From Chlorobiaceae bacterium (GTDB lineage Bacteria > Bacteroidota > Ignavibacteria > Ignavibacteriales > Ignavibacteriaceae), in contig PNNF01000013.1 in assembly GCA_013824085.1 (NCBI GenBank), forward strand, positions 1 through 64,000: 64,000 bases of DNA, written 5' to 3'. Positions within the stretch are counted from its first letter, which is position 1. The number at the start of each line of letters is the position of its first letter. The position numbers and the translations under genes are program-made. Below the pieces are notes generated by a model, which saw only the letters and a program-made list of their open reading frames with translations, was not told the origin of the DNA and searched no databases. Shown piece by piece: positions 14,741-29,047 of this stretch.

Positions 14741-16219
14741 TTGAATTTGAAAAAAAATATATTAATAATTCTTTTGCTCTTATCTGCGGCTGTCAATATA
14801 GTTCCTCAGAATTTCTCAACTCATTATTTACATAAAAAACAATTTGGATTTGTAGATGAGCATGAAGCAAAAAAAATTTCGGAAGAAAATTCTAAAATAA
14901 AAATTATCTCATCGTTAGATAAAAAATCTAATTTAAATAAAATTGTCTTTGGCTATTTACCATATTGGGAATATCTGAATTCAAGACAATTCATTCGTTA
15001 TAATCTCTTGTCACATATCGCATTATTTGATTTTTATGTCTCCGCAAATGGAGCGATTACTAATCCGCCATACTGGCCTTGGACTGACGTAATAAATTTA
15101 GCGAAACAAAATGGTGTAAAGACAATTTTATGTGCAACGAATTTTAATGATTCATTAATAAATATAATAATTCGCACTCCTACAGTTTATCAAAATTTTT
15201 TCAACAATTTAAAAAATATTATTACTCAACATCAACTTGATGGCGTAAACATTGATTTTGAAGGACTAAAGACAATTGATCGCGGTGCTGTTTTTAATTC
15301 CTTCATGGCGGAATTAAAAAATTATTTTACTTTGCATTTACCCGGCAAAGAAATTTCATTCGCAGGTCCGGCAGTCAATTGGGGCGGGCATTGGAATTTT
15401 GGTGAGCTGAAAAATCATCTCGATTTTATTTTCGTTATGGGTTATGATTTTTATGGAAGCTGGAGCACAAACGCTGGTCCATCCGCTCCATTATTGGGTG
15501 ATAGTTATAATGTTACAAATTCAATCAATGTTCAATATGCCGCAGTTGTAAATTCAAATCCCGAAAAATTAGTGCTTGGCGTTCCTTATTACGGAAATAG
15601 ATGGATCACTCGAACAGACGCACAAGGTCAACGCTCACTTCGTTTTGTAAGCTCGACGCGATTTCGAAATGATGATACTGCATCTCTACGAATTGGTTAC
15701 AGATGGTCGAACACTTATAAAACGCCTTGGTACGCTTGGCGAAACAATGACACAAGTTGGTTTCAAGTTTGGTTTGATGATGATTCAAGTTTAGCATTAA
15801 AGTACGATTTAGCTCGAGCAAAAAATCTGGGCGGAATCGGAATGTGGGCTTTAGGTTATGATGGTGATAAGCCAGATTTGTGGAACAAAATTCATCAATA
15901 CTTAAACGCTTCAACAAATATTAATGATGATGATAACTTAGAATATGATTTTATCTTGAGTCAAAACTTTCCAAATCCATTTAATGCAACAACTGTAATT
16001 CGATATCAATTGCCTGCGAGTGGTTTTATCTCACTTAAAATATTTGATCTGCTCGGCAATGAAATAGAAACGATTATTAATCAAGAGCAACAAGCTGGAT
16101 TTTATCAGATTGATTTTAACTCACAAAATTTATCAAGTGGAATTTATTTTTATAGATTAACACTTCACGGAAAAAATTTATTTCACTCTTCAACTCACAA
16201 AATGGTTCTAACAAAATAA
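14741..16219 (+). CDS. secreted GH18 glycosidase with T9SS sorting domain
   Basis: Glycoside hydrolase family 18 (chitinase/cortex-lytic SleL-YaaH type) acting on GlcNAc polymers. After a signal peptide the barrel shows LDGVNIDFEG with the catalytic Glu at residue 174 and Asp172; Asn170 replaces one Asp of the DGxDxDxE box, as in YaaH/SleL relatives. FVMGYDFYGSW and GIGMWALGYD follow at beta-6 and beta-8. The last ~85 residues are a type A T9SS sorting tail (NFPNPFNATTVIRYQLP, SGIYFYRLT). The start is TTG (14741 or 14747). The next gene begins five bases after the stop. The product is predicted to be secreted or surface-bound through T9SS. Confidence 0.85.
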   Translation: MNLKKNILIILLLLSAAVNIVPQNFSTHYLHKKQFGFVDEHEAKKISEENSKIKIISSLDKKSNLNKIVFGYLPYWEYLNSRQFIRYNLLSHIALFDFYVSANGAITNPPYWPWTDVINLAKQNGVKTILCATNFNDSLINIIIRTPTVYQNFFNNLKNIITQHQLDGVNIDFEGLKTIDRGAVFNSFMAELKNYFTLHLPGKEISFAGPAVNWGGHWNFGELKNHLDFIFVMGYDFYGSWSTNAGPSAPLLGDSYNVTNSINVQYAAVVNSNPEKLVLGVPYYGNRWITRTDAQGQRSLRFVSSTRFRNDDTASLRIGYRWSNTYKTPWYAWRNNDTSWFQVWFDDDSSLALKYDLARAKNLGGIGMWALGYDGDKPDLWNKIHQYLNASTNINDDDNLEYDFILSQNFPNPFNATTVIRYQLPASGFISLKIFDLLGNEIETIINQEQQAGFYQIDFNSQNLSSGIYFYRLTLHGKNLFHSSTHKMVLTK

Positions 16220-16224
16220 ATTCT

Positions 16225-17664
16225 ATGAAAATATTATTGCTCTACTTTTTACTATTCACTTCTATTCTATCTGCACAAACTACAAGAGAAAAAATTGGAC
16301 AGATGGTGATGGTTGGATTTATCGGAAACTCACTTCAATTCAATCATCAAACAATTGATACGCTTAAGGTTGATCTTAGACAACGAAATCTTGGCGGCGT
16401 TATTTTGATGGGCGTTAATCAGAATTTACAAAACATTTCGCAAATGAAAGCGTTGACCGATACACTTCAAAAATATTCTTCAACTCCACTTTTTATTTCA
16501 ACTGATCAAGAAGGTGGAAATGTTGCACGACTAAATTCTTCTAATGGATTTCTAAATACATCAACCGCTTTTAGATTGGGTACAACTTTAAATCGAGAAG
16601 ATAGCACACGAAGACAAGCGAGTATTATGGCGGGTTGGTTGAAGCAAGTTGGGATTAATACAAATTTTGCTCCCGTTGTTGATGTGAATGTTAATCCTCA
16701 AAGTCCCGCTATTGGCAGACTCGAAAGAAGTTTTTCAAGCGATACAATAATTGTTTACAATCATGCAAAATGGTTTGTAGACGAATTTAAGAGAAGAGAT
16801 ATTATCACAACGATGAAACATTTTCCCGGACACGGAAGCGCTACTGTCGATAGTCATCTCGGCTTCACCGACATTACTTCAACTTGGAGATCATTGGAAC
16901 TTTATCCTTACAAAAGATTAGTAAATGAAAATTATGTTGATATGATTATGACGGGACACTTATTCAATCGAAATTTTGATTCAACTTATCCTGCTACTTT
17001 GTCATTCAATACAATCACAAATGTATTGCGAAATCAAATTGGGTATAATGGTGTTGTAATTTCCGATGCAATGTTTATGGGAGCGATTGTAAATAATTAT
17101 TCTTTTGAAGATGCAATCGTATTGACAATAAACGCTGGAGTTGATATTTTACTCTATACAACAAATTTAACTCAAGGAACTGAGAAGCATTCTATTACTC
17201 GTAGAATTATTGAAATTGTTGAGAGAAAAATTTCTGAAGGTGTAATTTCACCGAACAGAATAAATGAAAGTTACAATCGTATTATGCAATTGAAATCTAA
17301 ATATCTTCAGACAAGTATTGCTTCTGATGATTTCAATCAACCAAATTCTTTTGAGATGAAAAACTATCCGAACCCATTTAATCCAAACACAAAAATTCGA
17401 TTTACCATTCCAAGCAGTGTTATCAATGCCAACAGCAATTCATCACAAAAAAATAATAATGGAATTTCTCAGGAAAGTTTTTTTGTAATGTTAAAAATCT
17501 ATGATATTCTTGGAAACGAAGTTGCGACTTTATTGAATGAAGAAAAATTTTCAGGAGTGTATGAAATTGATTTTAATGGAGCAAATCTTTCATCAGGAAT
17601 TTATTTCTCCGTATTAAGAGTTAATGATAAAATTCTTACAAATAAAATGTTGTTACTGAGATAA
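16225..17664 (+). CDS. secreted GH3 beta-N-acetylhexosaminidase with T9SS sorting domain
   Basis: Glycoside hydrolase family 3 of NagZ type, which removes GlcNAc from chitin or peptidoglycan fragments. Motifs: STDQEGGNVARL, IGRLERSFS, KHFPGHGSATVDSH with the Asp209-His211 acid/base dyad specific to NagZ-type enzymes, and the nucleophile Asp281 in VVISDAMFMGAI. A signal peptide (LLLYFLLFTSILSAQ) and a C-terminal T9SS sorting tail (NYPNPFNPNTKIRFTIP, SGIYFSVLRV) show that it is exported; ordinary NagZ is cytosolic. With the GH18 gene immediately upstream it forms a secreted two-step degradation pair. Confidence 0.88.
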   Translation: MKILLLYFLLFTSILSAQTTREKIGQMVMVGFIGNSLQFNHQTIDTLKVDLRQRNLGGVILMGVNQNLQNISQMKALTDTLQKYSSTPLFISTDQEGGNVARLNSSNGFLNTSTAFRLGTTLNREDSTRRQASIMAGWLKQVGINTNFAPVVDVNVNPQSPAIGRLERSFSSDTIIVYNHAKWFVDEFKRRDIITTMKHFPGHGSATVDSHLGFTDITSTWRSLELYPYKRLVNENYVDMIMTGHLFNRNFDSTYPATLSFNTITNVLRNQIGYNGVVISDAMFMGAIVNNYSFEDAIVLTINAGVDILLYTTNLTQGTEKHSITRRIIEIVERKISEGVISPNRINESYNRIMQLKSKYLQTSIASDDFNQPNSFEMKNYPNPFNPNTKIRFTIPSSVINANSNSSQKNNNGISQESFFVMLKIYDILGNEVATLLNEEKFSGVYEIDFNGANLSSGIYFSVLRVNDKILTNKMLLLR

Positions 17665-17747: not shown

Positions 17748-19385
17748 ATGAAAATAGCAGTAGCCCAAATAAATCCAATTATTGGTGATATAAAAGGGAA
17801 CAAGAAAAAAATTCTTGATTCCTATTTTGATGGCGTAAAACAAGGCGCTGATTTAGTTGTTTGTCCTGAACTTTCGTTGCTTGGATATCCTCCTTTAGAT
17901 ATGGTTGAGAAAAAAGAATTTAGAAAAGCAGTTCAAATTGCTGCTGAAGAAATTGCATCTGAAACAAAAGATGCGGGATTAATTTTCGGCTCTATTCATG
18001 AAACTGATGATGACATTGGGACAAATCTTTATAACTCTGCTTTTCTTTGTTACTCAGGAAAAATAAAATTCATTCAACACAAAACATTAATTCCAAATTA
18101 TGATGTCTTTGATGAGATGCGTTATTTTGAATGTTCAAAGGATGCTGAGATTCATAAGTTCAAAGATCAGATACTTGGAATTTCTATTTGTGAAGATATT
18201 TGGAATGACAAAGACTATTGGAAGAAAAGACTTTATCAGAACGATCCAGTTGAACTTCAAGTAAAAAAAGGTGCAACACTTTTAATCAATATTTCCGCTT
18301 CGCCTTATTCTTACGGAAAGAGACTTGCACGCAAAGAGATGTTATCAACACTTGCTCGACAAGATAAAGTTAAATTGATTTACGCTTGTAATGTAGGTGC
18401 TCAATCGGAATTAATTTTTGATGGCGCAAGTATGTGTTTTGATGAGTATGGAAATTTGTTGATGCTCGGAAAATTGTATGAAAACGATCTCTTTATTTAT
18501 GACACAGAAAAAATTTATTCTCCAATTATTAAGCTCGAAAATTCTTTTGAAGAAGAAATTATTGATGCGTTAACACTTGGTATAAAAGACTATTGCAATA
18601 AACTCGGTTTTAAAAAAGCGTTGATAGGATTGAGTGGCGGCATTGATTCTGCTTTAGTAACTTATATTGCAGTCAGAGCTTTGGGAAAAGAAAATGTTCA
18701 CGTCCTACTGTTGCCATCTAAATATTCGAGTGAAGGAAGTGTTAAAGATTCTTTGAAACTAATTGCGAATCTTGGAATCTCACATGAAGAAATTTCGATT
18801 CAATCTGTTGTTGATGCAACTCTCGAAAGTTTGAGTAAATTTTTCAATGGAAAACCTGAAGATAGAACAGAAGAGAATATTCAGTCTCGTGTTCGGGGTC
18901 AAATATTAATGGCTATTTCAAATAAGTTTGGATACTTAGTTTTAACAACGGGTAATAAATCAGAGCTTGCAACTGGTTACGCAACTCTTTACGGCGATAT
19001 GTGTGGCGGGCTTGCAGTCATTGCAGATGTTTATAAAACAGATGTTTATCGATTATCGAATTATATTAATCGAAAGAAGGAAATTATTCCTCGCGAGATA
19101 ATTCAAAAAGCTCCGAGTGCAGAGTTGAAGCCGAATCAAACAGATCAAGATACGCTGCCGCCTTATGAAGTGCTCGATAAAATATTAAGAATGTATCTGG
19201 AAGAAAATAAAGAAGAGCAAGAAATTTCGGACATTGTAAAGGCAAATGAAACGATCAGTAAAGTATTGTTAATGGTGGATCAAAGTGAGTATAAAAGAAA
19301 GCAGGCAGCACCTGCATTAAGAGTTTCCAACAAAGCTTTTGGGTACGGAAGAAGATACCCAATAGTTCAAGGATGGAGAAAGTAA
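17748..19385 (+). CDS. nadE: glutamine-dependent NAD+ synthetase
   Basis: Makes NAD+ from nicotinic acid adenine dinucleotide, ATP and glutamine. The N-terminal nitrilase-type glutaminase has the triad Glu41 (CPELSLLGYPP), Lys112 (HKTLIPNY) and Cys148 (ISICEDIW). The C-terminal ATP-pyrophosphatase domain has the SGGIDS loop at 296-301, followed by TTGNKSELATGYATLYGD. The domains are in the usual order; 545 residues is normal for the short glutaminase-fused form. AGGG lies 5 nt before the ATG. The DsbD gene overlaps or nearly abuts its end. Confidence 0.95.
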   Translation: MKIAVAQINPIIGDIKGNKKKILDSYFDGVKQGADLVVCPELSLLGYPPLDMVEKKEFRKAVQIAAEEIASETKDAGLIFGSIHETDDDIGTNLYNSAFLCYSGKIKFIQHKTLIPNYDVFDEMRYFECSKDAEIHKFKDQILGISICEDIWNDKDYWKKRLYQNDPVELQVKKGATLLINISASPYSYGKRLARKEMLSTLARQDKVKLIYACNVGAQSELIFDGASMCFDEYGNLLMLGKLYENDLFIYDTEKIYSPIIKLENSFEEEIIDALTLGIKDYCNKLGFKKALIGLSGGIDSALVTYIAVRALGKENVHVLLLPSKYSSEGSVKDSLKLIANLGISHEEISIQSVVDATLESLSKFFNGKPEDRTEENIQSRVRGQILMAISNKFGYLVLTTGNKSELATGYATLYGDMCGGLAVIADVYKTDVYRLSNYINRKKEIIPREIIQKAPSAELKPNQTDQDTLPPYEVLDKILRMYLEENKEEQEISDIVKANETISKVLLMVDQSEYKRKQAAPALRVSNKAFGYGRRYPIVQGWRK

Positions 19386-19402
19386 TATCAATTGGAGTTT
19401 TA

Positions 19403-21181
19403 ATGTTATCTAAAATAAAATTTTTCATTTATCTTTTTTTATTTTTTGTTTCAGCACAAAATATTTTTCCTCAATTCGGAAATCAAAAAGAGCTTTTAAC
19501 AATTAGCCCTTTTCTTTCATTTGAAAAAGTTCACGCGGGAATAAAAATAAAATTTGCTTTGAAAGTTAATCTCGACACTACTTGGCATATAAATTCAAAT
19601 AAACCAAATGAAGATTTTTTAATACCAACAGAAATAATTCTCGACTCCGCAGCAGGAATGAAATTAACTGATCTCGTTTATCCAATTGCGAAAGAATTGA
19701 AATTTGATTTTTCGGAAATTCCTCTTTCTGTTTATGAAGGTGAATTTTTTATTACTGGTTTTATTCATGTTCCAAAAGATATTTCTGTCGGTGAATATTA
19801 CATCCCTTTCACCTTTCATTATCAAGCTTGCAACAATGTAACGTGCTTAGCTCCTGAAGAAATTATTGATACTCTAAAAATTTCTGTCGTCGATTTTGAT
19901 ACTCCAATTTCTGAAATTAATCAGGATCTTTTTGCAAAGATTGAATTTGAAAAAATGAATGAAGCCAAAGAAAAAACTGGAGACGATTCAGTTACTTCAC
20001 TTCTTGATGAAAGTGGTTTCTTCTTAGTTTTACTTTTAGTTTTTCTAGGTGGACTCGCCTTAAACTTAACGCCTTGTGTCTATCCATTAATTCCAATTAC
20101 TGTAGGCTATTTTGGTGGACAGAGTGAAGGTAGCACTAAGCGATTAGCGTTGATGGGTGGGCTTTATGTTTTAGGACTTGCAGTAACTTATTCAATCATT
20201 GGTGTTATAACATCATTGAGTGGTGCAATCTTCGGAGCATTACTTCAAAATACTTACGTCATAATTTCTATTGCAATAATTTTTCTACTTCTTTCGTTTA
20301 GTATGTTCGGACTTTATGAATTTAAATTACCGGATTCATTCGTAAATAAAGTTGGTGCTGCAAAATCAGGATTGTTCGGAGCTTTATTTATGGGCATCAC
20401 AATGGGTGTTGTCGCTGCTCCTTGCATTGGACCCTTTGTAATTGGGCTTGTAACTTACGTCGCTGCTAAAGGTGATCCATTTTATGGTTTTATTCTTTTC
20501 TTCGTTCTCGCTCTTGGCTTAGGACTTCCATATTTTGTGCTTGCTCTCTTTTCTGGAAAAATAAAAAAACTTCCGAAAGCAGGCGAGTGGATGGTTGCAG
20601 TAAAACATATCTTCGGAATAATTTTAATCGGAATGGCAGTCTATTTTGTTGCTCCACTTTTGCCTAAACCATATTCAACTTATGCACTTCCCGTTTATGT
20701 TTTACTTGGTGCACTCTATCTTTTATTCTTTGAGAAAAATGGAAATAACGTTAGAGGATTTAAAATATTTAGATATGTTTTTTCAGTAATTGTTTTAGCC
20801 ATTGGAATTTATTCGATTGTCCCAACGCAGAAAAATTCTATCGATTGGAAACCATTTGATAACGCACAATTTTTGGAGGCAAAAAATTCAGGTTTACCGA
20901 TCATTATCGATTTCTATGCTGATTGGTGCATTCCTTGTAAAGAACTGGATGCGCTTACTTTTTCAGATGCAACTGTTATTGAAGAATCAAAAAGATTTAT
21001 TGGATTCAAAGCAGATATGACTAAAACTTTGTCTGAAGAAGTAGAAACTTTAAGAAAAGAATTTAAAGTGATTGGTGTTCCGACCGTTCTGATTATTGAC
21101 TCAAATGGAATTGAACGCGAAAGAATTACTGGATTTGTTAACGCTGAAACTTTTCTTGCTAAATTAAAATCAGTGAAATAA
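19403..21181 (+). CDS. dsbD: thiol:disulfide interchange protein DsbD
   Basis: Carries electrons from cytosolic thioredoxin to the periplasm. Three domains are in order: an N-terminal periplasmic domain with a cysteine pair (YQACNNVTCLAPEE), a central CcdA/DsbD membrane domain whose helices 1 and 4 hold NLTPCVYPLIPITVGYF and VVAAPCIGPFVIG, and a C-terminal thioredoxin domain with DFYADWCIPCKEL. All six redox cysteines are present. I start at the ATG at 19403 because GGAG lies 6 nt before it; an earlier ATG at 19373 lies inside nadE. It may support thiol chemistry of exported proteins encoded nearby. Confidence 0.93.
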   Translation: MLSKIKFFIYLFLFFVSAQNIFPQFGNQKELLTISPFLSFEKVHAGIKIKFALKVNLDTTWHINSNKPNEDFLIPTEIILDSAAGMKLTDLVYPIAKELKFDFSEIPLSVYEGEFFITGFIHVPKDISVGEYYIPFTFHYQACNNVTCLAPEEIIDTLKISVVDFDTPISEINQDLFAKIEFEKMNEAKEKTGDDSVTSLLDESGFFLVLLLVFLGGLALNLTPCVYPLIPITVGYFGGQSEGSTKRLALMGGLYVLGLAVTYSIIGVITSLSGAIFGALLQNTYVIISIAIIFLLLSFSMFGLYEFKLPDSFVNKVGAAKSGLFGALFMGITMGVVAAPCIGPFVIGLVTYVAAKGDPFYGFILFFVLALGLGLPYFVLALFSGKIKKLPKAGEWMVAVKHIFGIILIGMAVYFVAPLLPKPYSTYALPVYVLLGALYLLFFEKNGNNVRGFKIFRYVFSVIVLAIGIYSIVPTQKNSIDWKPFDNAQFLEAKNSGLPIIIDFYADWCIPCKELDALTFSDATVIEESKRFIGFKADMTKTLSEEVETLRKEFKVIGVPTVLIIDSNGIERERITGFVNAETFLAKLKSVK

Positions 21182-21316: not shown

Positions 21317-24300
21317 TTGAAGCAGTTTTTTTTAGTATTTTTTTTTTTAGTCTCAACCAATTTTCTCTTTGGACAAATTAATCCGAACTACAAAATAGTT
21401 ACTGATACAATTAAAATTAATTTTCAGAATTACTATCGGATTAGCTCCTTATCTATTCTTCCAAATTCTGAAATCATTCAACTTCGTGGAAGCTATTTAT
21501 CAGCAGATCAATATCATTTTAATTATTCCGATTTAAGTTTTAGTATTTCTGAATCGGTGAGCTACTCAATATTTGATACATTGTTCGTTACTTACCAAAC
21601 TGTAAAGTTATCATTACAAAAAATTTATAAACGCCGAGAATTAGTTCAGCTTTTTCAAGAGTCAACTGGCGATACGGTCAAAGTTTTGCGAACCGAAAGT
21701 CGAGCATTGACTTCTGAAAATATATTTGGAAGCGAGATAGAAAAAAGTGGAACAATCATTCGGGGCTTTACTTTAGGCACGAACAAAGACCTTACTTTAC
21801 AGAGTGGATTGAAGCTGCAATTTTCGGGAAGACTTTCTGATGAGATTGAAGTTGTAGCAGCTTTAACTGATGAGAATACTCCAATTCAACCTGAAGGAAA
21901 CACTGAACGGCTCGATGAGTTCGATAAAGTTTTTATTCAACTAAAACATAAAAATGCTTCAGCAACTTTTGGCGATTATTCAATCTCTAAAAGATTCGGT
22001 GAGTTTGGAGTTATAAATAGAAAACTTCAAGGGTTAATTGGAGAAGTTAATTTTGAAAATCAGAATGCTTTCATCAGCATTGCAAGTTCCAAAGGAAAGT
22101 TTAATACAAATAATTTTGTTGGGCAAGATGGTGTGCAAGGACCATTTAGACTTTTTGGAAGTAACAACGAGAGAGACATAATTATTATTGCAGGCTCAGA
22201 GAAAATTTTCGTTGACGGTGAAGAGATGAGAAGAGGAGAGAGGAATGATTACATAATCGATTACTCTGATGCTACAATTACTTTTACACCTAATCGATTG
22301 ATTACTTCAGTAAGTAGAATAAACGTTGACTTTGAATATGCAGACAGAAAATTTGTTCGCAATTTATTTGCTGTCGGTGGTGAATCATCTTTCTTTGATA
22401 AAAAACTAAACTTGAAATTTTCTTATTTCAGAGATGGAGATAATCAAGATTCACCAATTGATATTTCACTTTCTGATTCGGACAAAGTAATTTTAAAAAA
22501 TGCGGGGAACGATAGAGATAAAGCGGTGAAAAGCGGAATTGTTTTAGCAACTCCAGATTCGCTTGGAGTGATGCGTGGTATTTATGAAAAAGTTGATACG
22601 TTAATTAATAGTGAATCAATTTCTTTTTATCGTTATAACCCTGGCTCAGCTTCAGCGATTTATTTTGTCTCCTTTTCATTCATCGGTTCTTCTAAAGGAA
22701 ATTATATTCGCGAAAGTCTTGGACATTATCGTTTCGTTGGAATAAATCGGGGAAGTTTTGAGCCGATAATTTTTTTGCCGATGCCTGAATTAAAACAAGT
22801 TTCAAATATCGTATTAAGTTATTCTCCAAATAAAAATTTTATTTTTAATTTTGAGTTAGCGGGAAGTTCTTGGGATAGAAATAGATTCTCATCAATTGAC
22901 GAAAATAAAAATCTTGCGTATGCAAGAAATTTATCGCTGCAAATATTACCTCAAGAAATTTCAATCTCTAATTTAAGTATGGGTAAAATTGGATTAACAC
23001 TCCGTGAAAGATTTATTCAAGCACAATTTACAACCTCAGATAGATTTAATTCAGTTGAGTTCAATAGAGATTTTAATATTGACGCAGACGCTTTAAGAGC
23101 CGATGAACAACTTCGAGAAATATCTGTTCGATACTTACCAAATAATTCAGGAGAGTTTAATTCAACTTACAGTTCATTGAACAAAATAAACTACTTTAAT
23201 TCTAATTTTAGTTCTAATCGATTTAACAATACGTTAAGTTTTGGGAAGAATAAAAATTATAACATCTTTTATAACTTCGATTATCTGACAACAACAAATC
23301 AATTAATTAAAAGTTATTGGTTGCGACAAAGAGGAACTTTCTCTTATGCTTTCAACAAATTTATTCCGGGAATCGAATTTATTGCTGAAGATAAAAATGA
23401 TAAAATCAATGAGAGAGACTCGTTGCTTCTCAGTAGTCTTAGGTTTATTCAGTTAGATCCTTTCTTTGAAATTAAAGATTTATTTGGAGTTAGTCTTTCA
23501 TATAAATACACTTTTAGAAGTGATGACATTCCTATGAATGGATTTATGATAAATGAATCTAAATCGTTTGGACAAACTTTAGAGCTGAATTATAGCGGTG
23601 TTCGTGAGGTTCAATCTTCTTTTAGAATTACAATACGTGATAAAAAATTTTCGCAAGAGTTGAAGAAGCAAGGTTTACTCGACAACCAAACTGTTTTGAT
23701 ACGAACACAAAATCGATTTAATTTTTTTCAGCGTGCTATTGAAGGAGATCTTTTTTATGAAGTATCTACTCAGAAAACTGCAAAGCTCCAAAAAATATTT
23801 GTTAAAGTTCCGATTGGACAAGGAAATTATATTTACTTAGGTGATATAAATAACAATGGAGTAGCTGATGAAAATGAATTTCAACTTACTCTGTTTGATG
23901 GCGAATTTATTATTATCAATCTTCCAACTGATGAATTGTTTCCCGTAATCGATCTTAAAACATCAACTCGCTGGAAAGTAAATTATGATTCTTTTTTTGA
24001 TTCACCCGGATTACTAAAAACAATTTTTTCGTCACTCTCCACCGAGACATATTTTCGTATTGAAGAAAATTCACAACAATCAGAATTGAGGAAAATTTAT
24101 CTGCTCCATCTTTCATCTTTCTTGAATGATAGTTTAACAATTCGTGGATCAAATTTATTTCAACAAGATATTTTCATTTTTGAAAATTCACAAGACTTAT
24201 CATTTCGGTTAAGATTTTTAGAGAGACGAAGTATGAACCAATTTGCTTCTGGAAATGAAAGAGGTTTATTGAATGAAAAAAGTTTACGAATTAGATTTAG

Positions 24301-24790
24301 AATGATTGAAGAAATAAGTAATCAGACAGAAATAATTTTCCAAACAGATAATTTACATGCACCAATAAATTCAAATCGGAATAGAAAAATTGCAGGTGAA
24401 AATATAATTACAGAATTTTCTTATCGTCCTCTTAGGAATATTGAAGTCGGATTTAAAATTAAAGTAGGAAGAAACCGAGATAACTTTCCGAGTAAACCAA
24501 CAGAAATAAATTCAAATGGACAAGGACTTCGATTTAATTTTTCATTTGCAGGAGCGGGAAGATTGCGAATTGAAGTTGATCGAAATGAACTAAATACGAA
24601 TACGATGGATAATTATATTCCTTATGAATTGTCTGAAGGGAATGCTATTGGAAAAAATTATTCGTGGCGCACAAATTTTGATTATCGAATTTCAACAAAT
24701 CTACAATCAACTGTAAGTTATGATGGCAGACAACAAGGAATTGGAAAAGTAATTCATACAGCGCGAGCAGAAGTGAGAGCATTTTTTTGA
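21317..24790 (+). CDS. large outer-membrane beta-barrel-like protein, unknown function
   Basis: A 1157-residue protein with a signal peptide (FFLVFFFLVSTNFLFGQ). I do not recognise a named family. A conserved-looking block near residues 130-210 reads IIRGFTLGTNKDLTLQSGL, VVAALTDENTPIQPEGN, DEFDKVFIQLKHKNASATFGD; a second block near 270-340 has GQDGVQGPFRLFG and EKIFVDGEEMRRGERNDYIIDYS. The last ~600 residues are alternating polar/aromatic strands and the protein ends in Phe, the usual end of outer-membrane barrels. I recall similar large proteins in Ignavibacteria and relatives, annotated only as hypothetical. It begins with TTG. It does not match SprA by visible motifs. The 136 bases before it contain no gene. 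Confidence 0.75.
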   Translation: MKQFFLVFFFLVSTNFLFGQINPNYKIVTDTIKINFQNYYRISSLSILPNSEIIQLRGSYLSADQYHFNYSDLSFSISESVSYSIFDTLFVTYQTVKLSLQKIYKRRELVQLFQESTGDTVKVLRTESRALTSENIFGSEIEKSGTIIRGFTLGTNKDLTLQSGLKLQFSGRLSDEIEVVAALTDENTPIQPEGNTERLDEFDKVFIQLKHKNASATFGDYSISKRFGEFGVINRKLQGLIGEVNFENQNAFISIASSKGKFNTNNFVGQDGVQGPFRLFGSNNERDIIIIAGSEKIFVDGEEMRRGERNDYIIDYSDATITFTPNRLITSVSRINVDFEYADRKFVRNLFAVGGESSFFDKKLNLKFSYFRDGDNQDSPIDISLSDSDKVILKNAGNDRDKAVKSGIVLATPDSLGVMRGIYEKVDTLINSESISFYRYNPGSASAIYFVSFSFIGSSKGNYIRESLGHYRFVGINRGSFEPIIFLPMPELKQVSNIVLSYSPNKNFIFNFELAGSSWDRNRFSSIDENKNLAYARNLSLQILPQEISISNLSMGKIGLTLRERFIQAQFTTSDRFNSVEFNRDFNIDADALRADEQLREISVRYLPNNSGEFNSTYSSLNKINYFNSNFSSNRFNNTLSFGKNKNYNIFYNFDYLTTTNQLIKSYWLRQRGTFSYAFNKFIPGIEFIAEDKNDKINERDSLLLSSLRFIQLDPFFEIKDLFGVSLSYKYTFRSDDIPMNGFMINESKSFGQTLELNYSGVREVQSSFRITIRDKKFSQELKKQGLLDNQTVLIRTQNRFNFFQRAIEGDLFYEVSTQKTAKLQKIFVKVPIGQGNYIYLGDINNNGVADENEFQLTLFDGEFIIINLPTDELFPVIDLKTSTRWKVNYDSFFDSPGLLKTIFSSLSTETYFRIEENSQQSELRKIYLLHLSSFLNDSLTIRGSNLFQQDIFIFENSQDLSFRLRFLERRSMNQFASGNERGLLNEKSLRIRFRMIEEISNQTEIIFQTDNLHAPINSNRNRKIAGENIITEFSYRPLRNIEVGFKIKVGRNRDNFPSKPTEINSNGQGLRFNFSFAGAGRLRIEVDRNELNTNTMDNYIPYELSEGNAIGKNYSWRTNFDYRISTNLQSTVSYDGRQQGIGKVIHTARAEVRAFF

Positions 24791-28108: not shown

Positions 28109-29047
28109 TTACTGAAACGTTGTTGTTAGTCCCAAGCGATGAATTGCACCAACTTGTCCAAATGATGAATAAGCATAGTTAAATAAATAATCTTTTATAG
28201 TAATTCCAAGCCCAATATTCAAGCCAGCAAGTCCAGAGAATCCACCAATTTTTAGTTCTCTCCGTTTTTCATTATCATAACCAACTCTAAGTTTTAGTGC
28301 TTTGCTTAAAGTAAATTCACCACCAATTGTAAACTGCTGAAATCTTTCGGTGAAAGCAATCTCCTCATTATTTAAGCGATGAAAATCGAGATAGAGACGA
28401 AGTGGCAAGTGTTCAAACTTATTTGAAAAACCGAGTGTGATATCGAATGGAAGATTTTCTTTTGTGTCACTAAATTTTGATAATTGTCCACCAATATTTT
28501 GAATTGCTAATCCGATACTTATATCTTCATCAGGAATAAAGTAATGAAGTCCAAAATCAAAAGCGAAAGCAGTTGAAGAATAATTTGCAATTCCTGAATA
28601 AATAAATTTGGCTGCAGTTCCATAATAAAAATTTTCATCTAAACTATTTGAATATCCTAACACGAATGCAACTTCGCCTGCACCAAACTCAGATAATTTA
28701 TTCCCAAATTGATCCGCTTCAGTAAAATTTCCGTAATTGATATATTTTATTCCCGCGCCAAATCTTCCAACACCTTCAATAAATTTAGAAGTTGAAATGC
28801 TTGTGAGATTAATATCTAAAAGATAGTTAGCGAAATTCAAAGACGTTGGCATATCTGTTAACGAATAAATTCCCGCTGGATTTTTGAATATTACATCGGG
28901 GTCATCAGAGTTTGCTGTAAAGCTTCCACCTAAGGCAGAGACTTTAGAGCTTACATCTATTCTTAAAAATTCATAAGTATTTTGTGCAGACAAAAAATTA
29001 TGAGAAATTATTATCATTAAGAAGAGATACCATTTTGAAAATTTCAT
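28109..29047 (-). CDS. porQ: T9SS protein PorQ
   Basis: A 312-residue FadL/PorV-like outer-membrane barrel. The opening motif TYEFLRIDVSSKVSALGGSF, then DDPDVIFKNPAGIYS, LNFANYLLDINLTSIS, GAGIKYINYGNFTEAD and GLAIQNIGGQL follow the PorQ pattern closely (in PorQ: FL.LP.SAR.AALGG...NPALL...NYLSDI.YG...YINYG.F.EAD). In Porphyromonas PorQ helps attach the A-LPS modification and process T9SS cargo. The signal peptide is at the N-terminus. It is convergent with the TPR gene, one base apart. This matches other T9SS genes in the window. Confidence 0.85.
   Translation of the reverse strand: MKFSKWYLFLMIIISHNFLSAQNTYEFLRIDVSSKVSALGGSFTANSDDPDVIFKNPAGIYSLTDMPTSLNFANYLLDINLTSISTSKFIEGVGRFGAGIKYINYGNFTEADQFGNKLSEFGAGEVAFVLGYSNSLDENFYYGTAAKFIYSGIANYSSTAFAFDFGLHYFIPDEDISIGLAIQNIGGQLSKFSDTKENLPFDITLGFSNKFEHLPLRLYLDFHRLNNEEIAFTERFQQFTIGGEFTLSKALKLRVGYDNEKRRELKIGGFSGLAGLNIGLGITIKDYLFNYAYSSFGQVGAIHRLGLTTTFQ

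Follow-up and report, generated by a model that had tools for sequence, protein, structure and literature searches.

Introduction

To our knowledge, the largest single-chain barrel so far described is that of SprA, the translocon of the type IX secretion system (T9SS). According to PMC10994853 and PMC9581022, the SprA barrel has 36 strands. Here, we analyze a gene for a predicted barrel protein of comparable type, located at positions 21317-24790 on the forward strand of a 64,000-nucleotide stretch of DNA from a Chlorobiaceae bacterium (contig PNNF01000013.1), referred to below as the window. The gene begins with a TTG codon and encodes 1157 amino acids (aa), the coordinates including the stop codon. 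The letter F denotes this gene, its protein and its family, and N denotes an exported NHL beta-propeller protein linked to F.

F is predicted to be an SprA-type giant barrel; neither Pfam nor NCBIfam has a model for its family, and a function for it was not found in the open-access literature. We describe the F family, its predicted barrel with inserts, the remote kinship of one of these, the insert A region, with SprA, and the linkage between N and F.

Predicted structure of F

The AlphaFold2 model of F, built with 106 homologues, is a barrel with a mean predicted local distance difference test (pLDDT) score of 89.5 and a predicted template modeling (pTM) score of 0.78; before the alignment was deepened, a model based on 32 close relatives had reached a pLDDT of only 63.5. 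The N-terminal residues look like a signal peptide, MKQFFLVFFFLVSTNFLFG-Q (residues about 1-20, 21317-21376), with a helix at residues 2-17 in the model. Signal peptide and barrel both agree with the initial annotation of this gene, made from the letters of the sequence, which had called the product a large exported barrel-like protein. Counted from the secondary-structure string of the model, with some strands joined or extended by judgement, the strands support a barrel of 38, with 36-40 as a fair range. This count is supported by the regularity of loop and turn lengths and of hydrophobicity alternation. The assumed topology places both barrel ends in the periplasm; it gives 19 extracellular loops with a mean length of 19.7 aa and 18 periplasmic turns with a mean of 4.1 aa, 17 of the turns being 2-6 aa long. 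The strand hydrophobicity alternation is 0.93, compared to 0.53 (standard deviation 0.07, maximum 0.73) in 1,000 shuffles.

In the model, the signal peptide is followed by a small beta domain, the N-domain (residues 25-126, 21389-21694), which is periplasmic by the assumed topology and has a SprA-like stretch. Barrel strands S1-S7 (residues 141-268, 21737-22120) contain GFTLGTNKDLTLQSGL and DENTPIQPEGN. Next comes insert A, a SprA-like mini-domain of 77 aa (residues 269-345, 22121-22351) with FRLFG and GEEMRRGERNDYIIDYS, followed by strands S8-S9 (residues 346-380, 22352-22456), by insert B, an inserted domain of 111 aa (residues 381-491, 22457-22789) that the assumed topology places on the extracellular side, and by strands S10-S38 (residues 492-1156, 22790-24784), which end in the conserved C-terminal strand; all of these features lie on the forward strand. 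The initial annotation had suggested a soluble domain or plug in the first half and a barrel in the second. A soluble part is present in the model, limited to about residues 25-126; the division into halves holds only in part, the barrel extending from about residue 141 to the C-terminus with two inserts. The pore is predicted to be wide, and the best explanation of the model is that inserts A and B fill or cap it from outside. The extracellular loop S25-S26 (residues 831-863, 23807-23905, same strand; conservation 0.61) carries the pattern DxNxNGxxDxxEF, which is similar to a calcium site, and may bind calcium. A PDB profile search with 106 F sequences gave a short match of this loop to an SdrD repeat (E 0.0012 for the whole sequence, profile positions 833-852).

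The F family

The F family is widespread across the sampled phylum and belongs to no described family. A profile of 32 sequences detected F in 226 of the 395 genomes that were sampled from the phylum; within the class, matches were found in 226 of 294 genomes. The relatives that bear names are labelled Ignavibacterium and Melioribacter, which makes class Ignavibacteria the probable source of the window. F is normally a single-copy gene, and a second copy was not found in the genome of the window (G000, 2.65 Mb, 98% complete). Homologues from 80 distant loci are 1,125-1,282 aa long, collinear with the window protein and aligned end to end with it; their last residue is Phe in 78 cases and Leu in 2, and the consensus of the C-terminal end is IHTxRAExRAxF. 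Across the 106 homologues, conservation is 0.70 for residues 269-345 and 0.61 for residues 141-268, compared to 0.39-0.47 for the later barrel. The conserved blocks that the initial annotation had quoted, at residues 150-165, 185-195, 277-281 and 301-317, are located in this most conserved part. F is not a chance open reading frame (ORF), because it is kept in 55 of 59 relatives, no internal stop occurs among the matches listed, and the quoted regions are the most conserved. An in-frame TAG immediately upstream of the TTG start closes the frame.

No Pfam or NCBIfam family covers the window protein (Pfam scan to E 10), and single-sequence searches of Pfam, NCBIfam and PDB gave nothing useful. 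When 32 homologues were scanned against Pfam to E 1, nine families were listed, PF14349 (SprA_N) not being among them, and PDB profile searches gave chance or short matches only. The initial description of F as a member of no described family is therefore upheld by these searches. A defence role was considered, and PADLOC returned 0 families for F and N; no F relative was found on the viral contigs searched, nor on plasmids, which were searched with a single distant homologue in place of the window protein. The open-access PubMed Central (PMC) literature yielded no paper on F or N.

Probable relationship to SprA

Foldseek comparison of the F model to the PDB placed SprA at the top rank (8gl6, E 3.7e-12; 8gl8, E 8.3e-12; 6h3i, E 9.7e-10), and SprA was also ranked first with the poor 32-sequence model. 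The size of F had been remarked on as near that of secretion channels, and SprA, the closest known structure, is such a channel. The VIA alignment of F and SprA spans the whole barrel of both (687 of 1157 residues of F with 6h3i, Z 16.2, root-mean-square deviation (rmsd) 8.2; 699 residues with 8gl6, Z 15.9, rmsd 8.4) and includes more residues than that of any other entry among the matches listed. For other barrels, VIA gave Z up to 17.6 over 368 residues (ushers) and about 16 over 250-290 residues (porins).

Aligned by hhalign with 16 SprA proteins, the whole of F gave a probability of 93.9 (E 1.5e-7). Residues 25-130 gave 91 (E 1e-6), residues 130-375 gave 95.7 (E 9e-9), and residues 269-380 gave 97.6 (E 3.2e-12), the last compared to at most 9 for non-overlapping SprA segments. 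Among 52 F proteins, 6 were matched by the SprA hidden Markov model (E from 9e-9 to 6e-6); in the reverse direction, 1 of 16 SprA proteins was matched by the F profile, in two stretches at similar spacing. In a search of 40 genomes, the F profile found true F in six and gave seven marginal matches, six of which were inside SprA ORFs. As judged from these profiles, the case for common ancestry is stronger in the insert A region than over the barrel as a whole. A remote relationship between F and SprA is probable, with F as a separate, shorter branch of the SprA superfamily. Structure prediction and profile searches, the course proposed at the outset, have yielded a barrel fold and this remote SprA kinship, with no match to a TonB receptor family. 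F is not SprA itself, because it failed the tests of PF14349 (no match in the window protein, scan to E 10), of length and of distribution, and because the genome of the window has SprA as a separate gene, a frame of 2265 aa.

F and the type IX secretion system

Among the 395 genomes, 225 have both F and SprA, 1 has F alone, 78 have SprA alone, and 91 have neither. The initial annotation had asked whether F is always accompanied by T9SS genes. This is so for SprA in 225 of the 226 F-positive genomes, and one has no detectable SprA. In the other direction, 78 of the 303 SprA-positive genomes lack F; therefore, F is not needed for T9SS. The sole F-positive genome without an SprA_N match, G516, has 1 match to the T9SS C-terminal domain (CTD); four genomes from the same GTDB family have 52, 60, 80 and 96. 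This one genome suggests that T9SS was lost while F stayed. We examined gene order at 82 F loci, and no T9SS gene recurs beside F among them. F tracks T9SS-bearing lineages without being a requirement of T9SS, and membership of F in T9SS was rejected on the distribution given above.

Linkage of F and N

The N proteins are exported NHL-repeat propellers of 270-348 aa. N is located upstream of F, on the same strand, in 9 of the 82 F loci, directly in eight and with one small gene between in the ninth. With two further loci of family f34 that have the N-F order, N stands beside F in seven GTDB families in all; in three loci, the two genes overlap by 4 nucleotides. The 395 genomes were searched with a profile of the nine N proteins at a cut-off of E 1e-17, which was chosen after seeing the values: 149 genomes have N and F, 77 have F without N, 0 have N without F, and 169 have neither. 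At a cut-off of 1e-14, seven F-negative genomes pass, and none pass at 1e-20 or 1e-25. We set apart the families that we guess to belong to class Bacteroidia (f33, f36, f37, f38, f41, f45-f49, f56, f59 and f66). Outside these, N was detected in 149 of 159 F-positive genomes and in 0 of 53 F-negative, SprA-positive genomes. In the genome of the window, N (G000:C2:85522-86280, E 1.7e-41, locus L202) is on another contig than F.

GTDB family f43 holds both states, with 25 F-positive and 20 F-negative genomes. N was found in all 25 of the former at E 1.2e-20 or better, and the 20 F-negative genomes gave nothing better than 4.6e-14. In the F-positive members read, F is located before ExbB, usually after DsbD, and N after purD. 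The corresponding sites were read in five of the 20 F-negative genomes. In all five, DsbD and ExbB still adjoin without F (gaps of about 190-1,220 bp), and purD is kept without N; in three of the five, the gene that formerly followed N is now directly after purD. In G360, where both sites are on a single contig, about 1.3 Mb separates them. In the F-negative f43 genomes examined, SprA is kept. In a tree built from the ExbB and ExbD sequences of 18 loci (two short proteins, with some deep nodes weak), the F-negative genomes occupy three positions. G360 is nested within genus g190 (clade support 0.98), g206 lies next to an F-positive genome (0.99), and g197 groups with g261 (0.93). By loss-only parsimony, F and N were jointly lost three times in f43. 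Repeated joint loss from unlinked sites is the strongest evidence that F and N share a function, and the two probably work together.

Genomic context

The upstream neighbour of F in the window is a gene for a DsbD-like disulfide reductase (19373-21181, forward strand). In NCBIfam, this neighbour matches the TsoB model best, at 470 bits, under the cut-off of 805 for that model. DsbD is directly upstream of F in 9 loci, namely the window and 8 others that belong to a distant part of the phylum. We considered whether DsbD is there to form disulfides in F and rejected this, because the whole F protein contains 0 cysteines. ExbB-ExbD-ExbD is directly downstream of F in 13 loci (L069, L070, L161-L165, L167-L169, L172, L173, L178); at L202-L204, an ExbB-ExbD-TonB-like cluster is near N instead. 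An MGMT-like protein and a UvrD-type helicase are encoded downstream of F in 15-16 loci. The DsbD, ExbB-ExbD, MGMT-like and UvrD-type neighbours recur only in parts of the phylum and look like housekeeping genes. In four loci of one GTDB family (L064, L065, L078, L182), the gene directly upstream of F encodes a histidine kinase, about 1,240 aa long, in which a large region is unassigned.

The window also contains, 3.3 kb downstream of F, a gene for the T9SS component PorQ (28109-29047, reverse strand; NF033711, 264 bits, cut-off 220), which is not recurrent as a neighbour of F across loci. The forward-strand gene at 14741-16219 encodes a chitinase-like protein that has a type A sorting domain of T9SS (TIGR04183, 35.7 bits, cut-off 23). 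The ORF that follows it, at 16225-17664 on the forward strand, is beta-N-acetylhexosaminidase-like, with a C-terminus that looks similar by eye. The intergenic segment 24870-25010 is AT-rich and has short, partly palindromic repeated units reading like TCCTCGTAGAGGAT.

Discussion

The explanation that we favor, and hold to be quite possible if somewhat short of probable, is that F is a barrel of the SprA branch which, together with N, exports large cargo and is not needed for T9SS. F would be a SprA-type gated outer-membrane export channel, largely independent of T9SS and assisted, in many lineages, by N. The barrel would form a capped giant pore that cargo enters from the periplasm; N, serving as a receptor or gate, would dock at the mouth on the periplasmic side, perhaps on the N-domain, and the two would move a protein or some other large cargo through the outer membrane. 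A more specific and more doubtful version is that F and N constitute an undescribed export system of Bacteroidota, SprA-class and T9SS-independent, in which the NHL propeller replaces the T9SS periplasmic module and the 38 strands form the largest predicted single-chain barrel known to us.

Several observations weigh against this explanation. A conserved F operon naming a cargo was not found. N was detected in none of the 67 F-positive genomes of the presumed Bacteroidia families; therefore, it is not universal. The TM-scores of F and SprA are low (0.23-0.25 by query length), and the superposition is accordingly not close. The VIA Z for SprA is level with those of ushers and porins, so that Z cannot discriminate and aligned length does so weakly; the predicted fold alone does not single out SprA as the relative of F. 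In hhalign, residues 135-268 (S1-S7) gave a probability of about 10 with the expected SprA segment and 12.7 with another segment. The seventh marginal match of the F profile is a 638-aa phage-tail-like protein (L201) with two copies of the mini-domain NGQLLxEGxDYTVNYN, and since this unit, common to F and SprA, also occurs there, the mini-domain alone is no proof of kinship. It is possibly a mobile beta unit. Against a loss of T9SS in G516, this genome has a GldL-like diverged frame of 69.6 bits (cut-off 68.3), compared to 136-178 bits in the four relatives. It should be noted that the GldL model has no match in the genome of the window; therefore, it is not sensitive in this class. Finally, the capped barrel could be structural instead, or its cargo could be other than protein.

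A structural role would make F a scaffold for outer-membrane assembly or stability, without transport, that organizes outer-membrane proteins, lipopolysaccharide or peptidoglycan contacts; N would be its docking propeller, in the manner of BamB or BamI. We consider this unlikely. The housekeeping neighbours (DsbD, ExbB-ExbD, purD, glyS, UvrD-type helicase) and the single copy in most genomes are consistent with it, and beta-propellers accompany the barrel assembly machinery (BAM) in known systems, according to PMC12578637. Against these stand the several clean losses of F, through which the cell and SprA persist, so that F is not essential, and the argument that a 38-strand barrel with cap-like inserts would be costly.

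It is still less probable that F is an accessory component of T9SS, such as a second translocon that handles some of the CTD-bearing substrates. The near-complete co-occurrence of F with SprA, their remote kinship, and the presence of PorQ and a CTD-bearing protein in the window would fit such a role; the SprA-positive genomes without F, the lack of a recurrent T9SS gene beside F, and G516 speak against it, the GldL-like frame being the weak point of the last. Similarly low credence goes to F as a pore through which polysaccharide, lipid or a large nutrient would pass instead of protein, N being the binding propeller. NHL propellers can bind ligands, and among solved structures F also resembles the alginate exporter AlgE, LptD and TonB receptors; however, the predicted barrel is far larger than these, no LptD, TonB-plug, porin or exporter family matches F by sequence, and polysaccharide or transport genes are not recurrent beside F or N across the loci read.

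If export by F and N is the correct explanation, the SprA barrel is not a one-off: a second giant barrel, of half its length, is present in the phylum, in over half of the sampled genomes (226 of 395). F would then be a compact model for the gating of giant barrels. The N-F pair would be a concrete two-gene system, with a linkage that rests on joint losses recurring at unlinked sites, evidence that is unusually clean.

Comparison with known systems

LptD, AlgE, TonB-dependent receptors and SusC, found by Foldseek or VIA, are, like F, outer-membrane barrels with plug or cap domains. They differ in having smaller barrels and no sequence match to F; scans to E 10 gave no match of F to the TonB plug and receptor domains of Pfam or to LptD in Pfam or NCBIfam. 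As in the model of F, the barrel of the FimD/PapC ushers has a domain inserted near the start of the chain, and the three best VIA matches to ushers reach Z 16.8-17.6 over 337-370 residues, generic large barrels scoring about equal. The insert of F comes after the seventh strand, on the extracellular side by the assumed topology; the usher barrel has 24 strands, no chaperone or pilin genes recur near F, and the usher Pfam family gave no match to E 10.

The BAM propellers BamB and BamI are propellers that act with an outer-membrane barrel machine, as N may do. According to PMC12578637, BamI is extracellular; N is an NHL propeller tied to F by profile and gene order.

SprA/Sov (PF14349; PDB 6h3i, 6h3j, 8gl6, 8gl8) is, like F, a giant single-chain outer-membrane barrel of the same phylum. 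The two align from the first barrel strand to the C-terminus, with related mini-domains in similar order and spacing. SprA is about 2,300-2,500 aa long, compared to 1157 aa for F, and has 36 strands, compared to the 38 counted from the secondary structure of the F model. The two also differ in distribution, and the NHL partner is on the F side.

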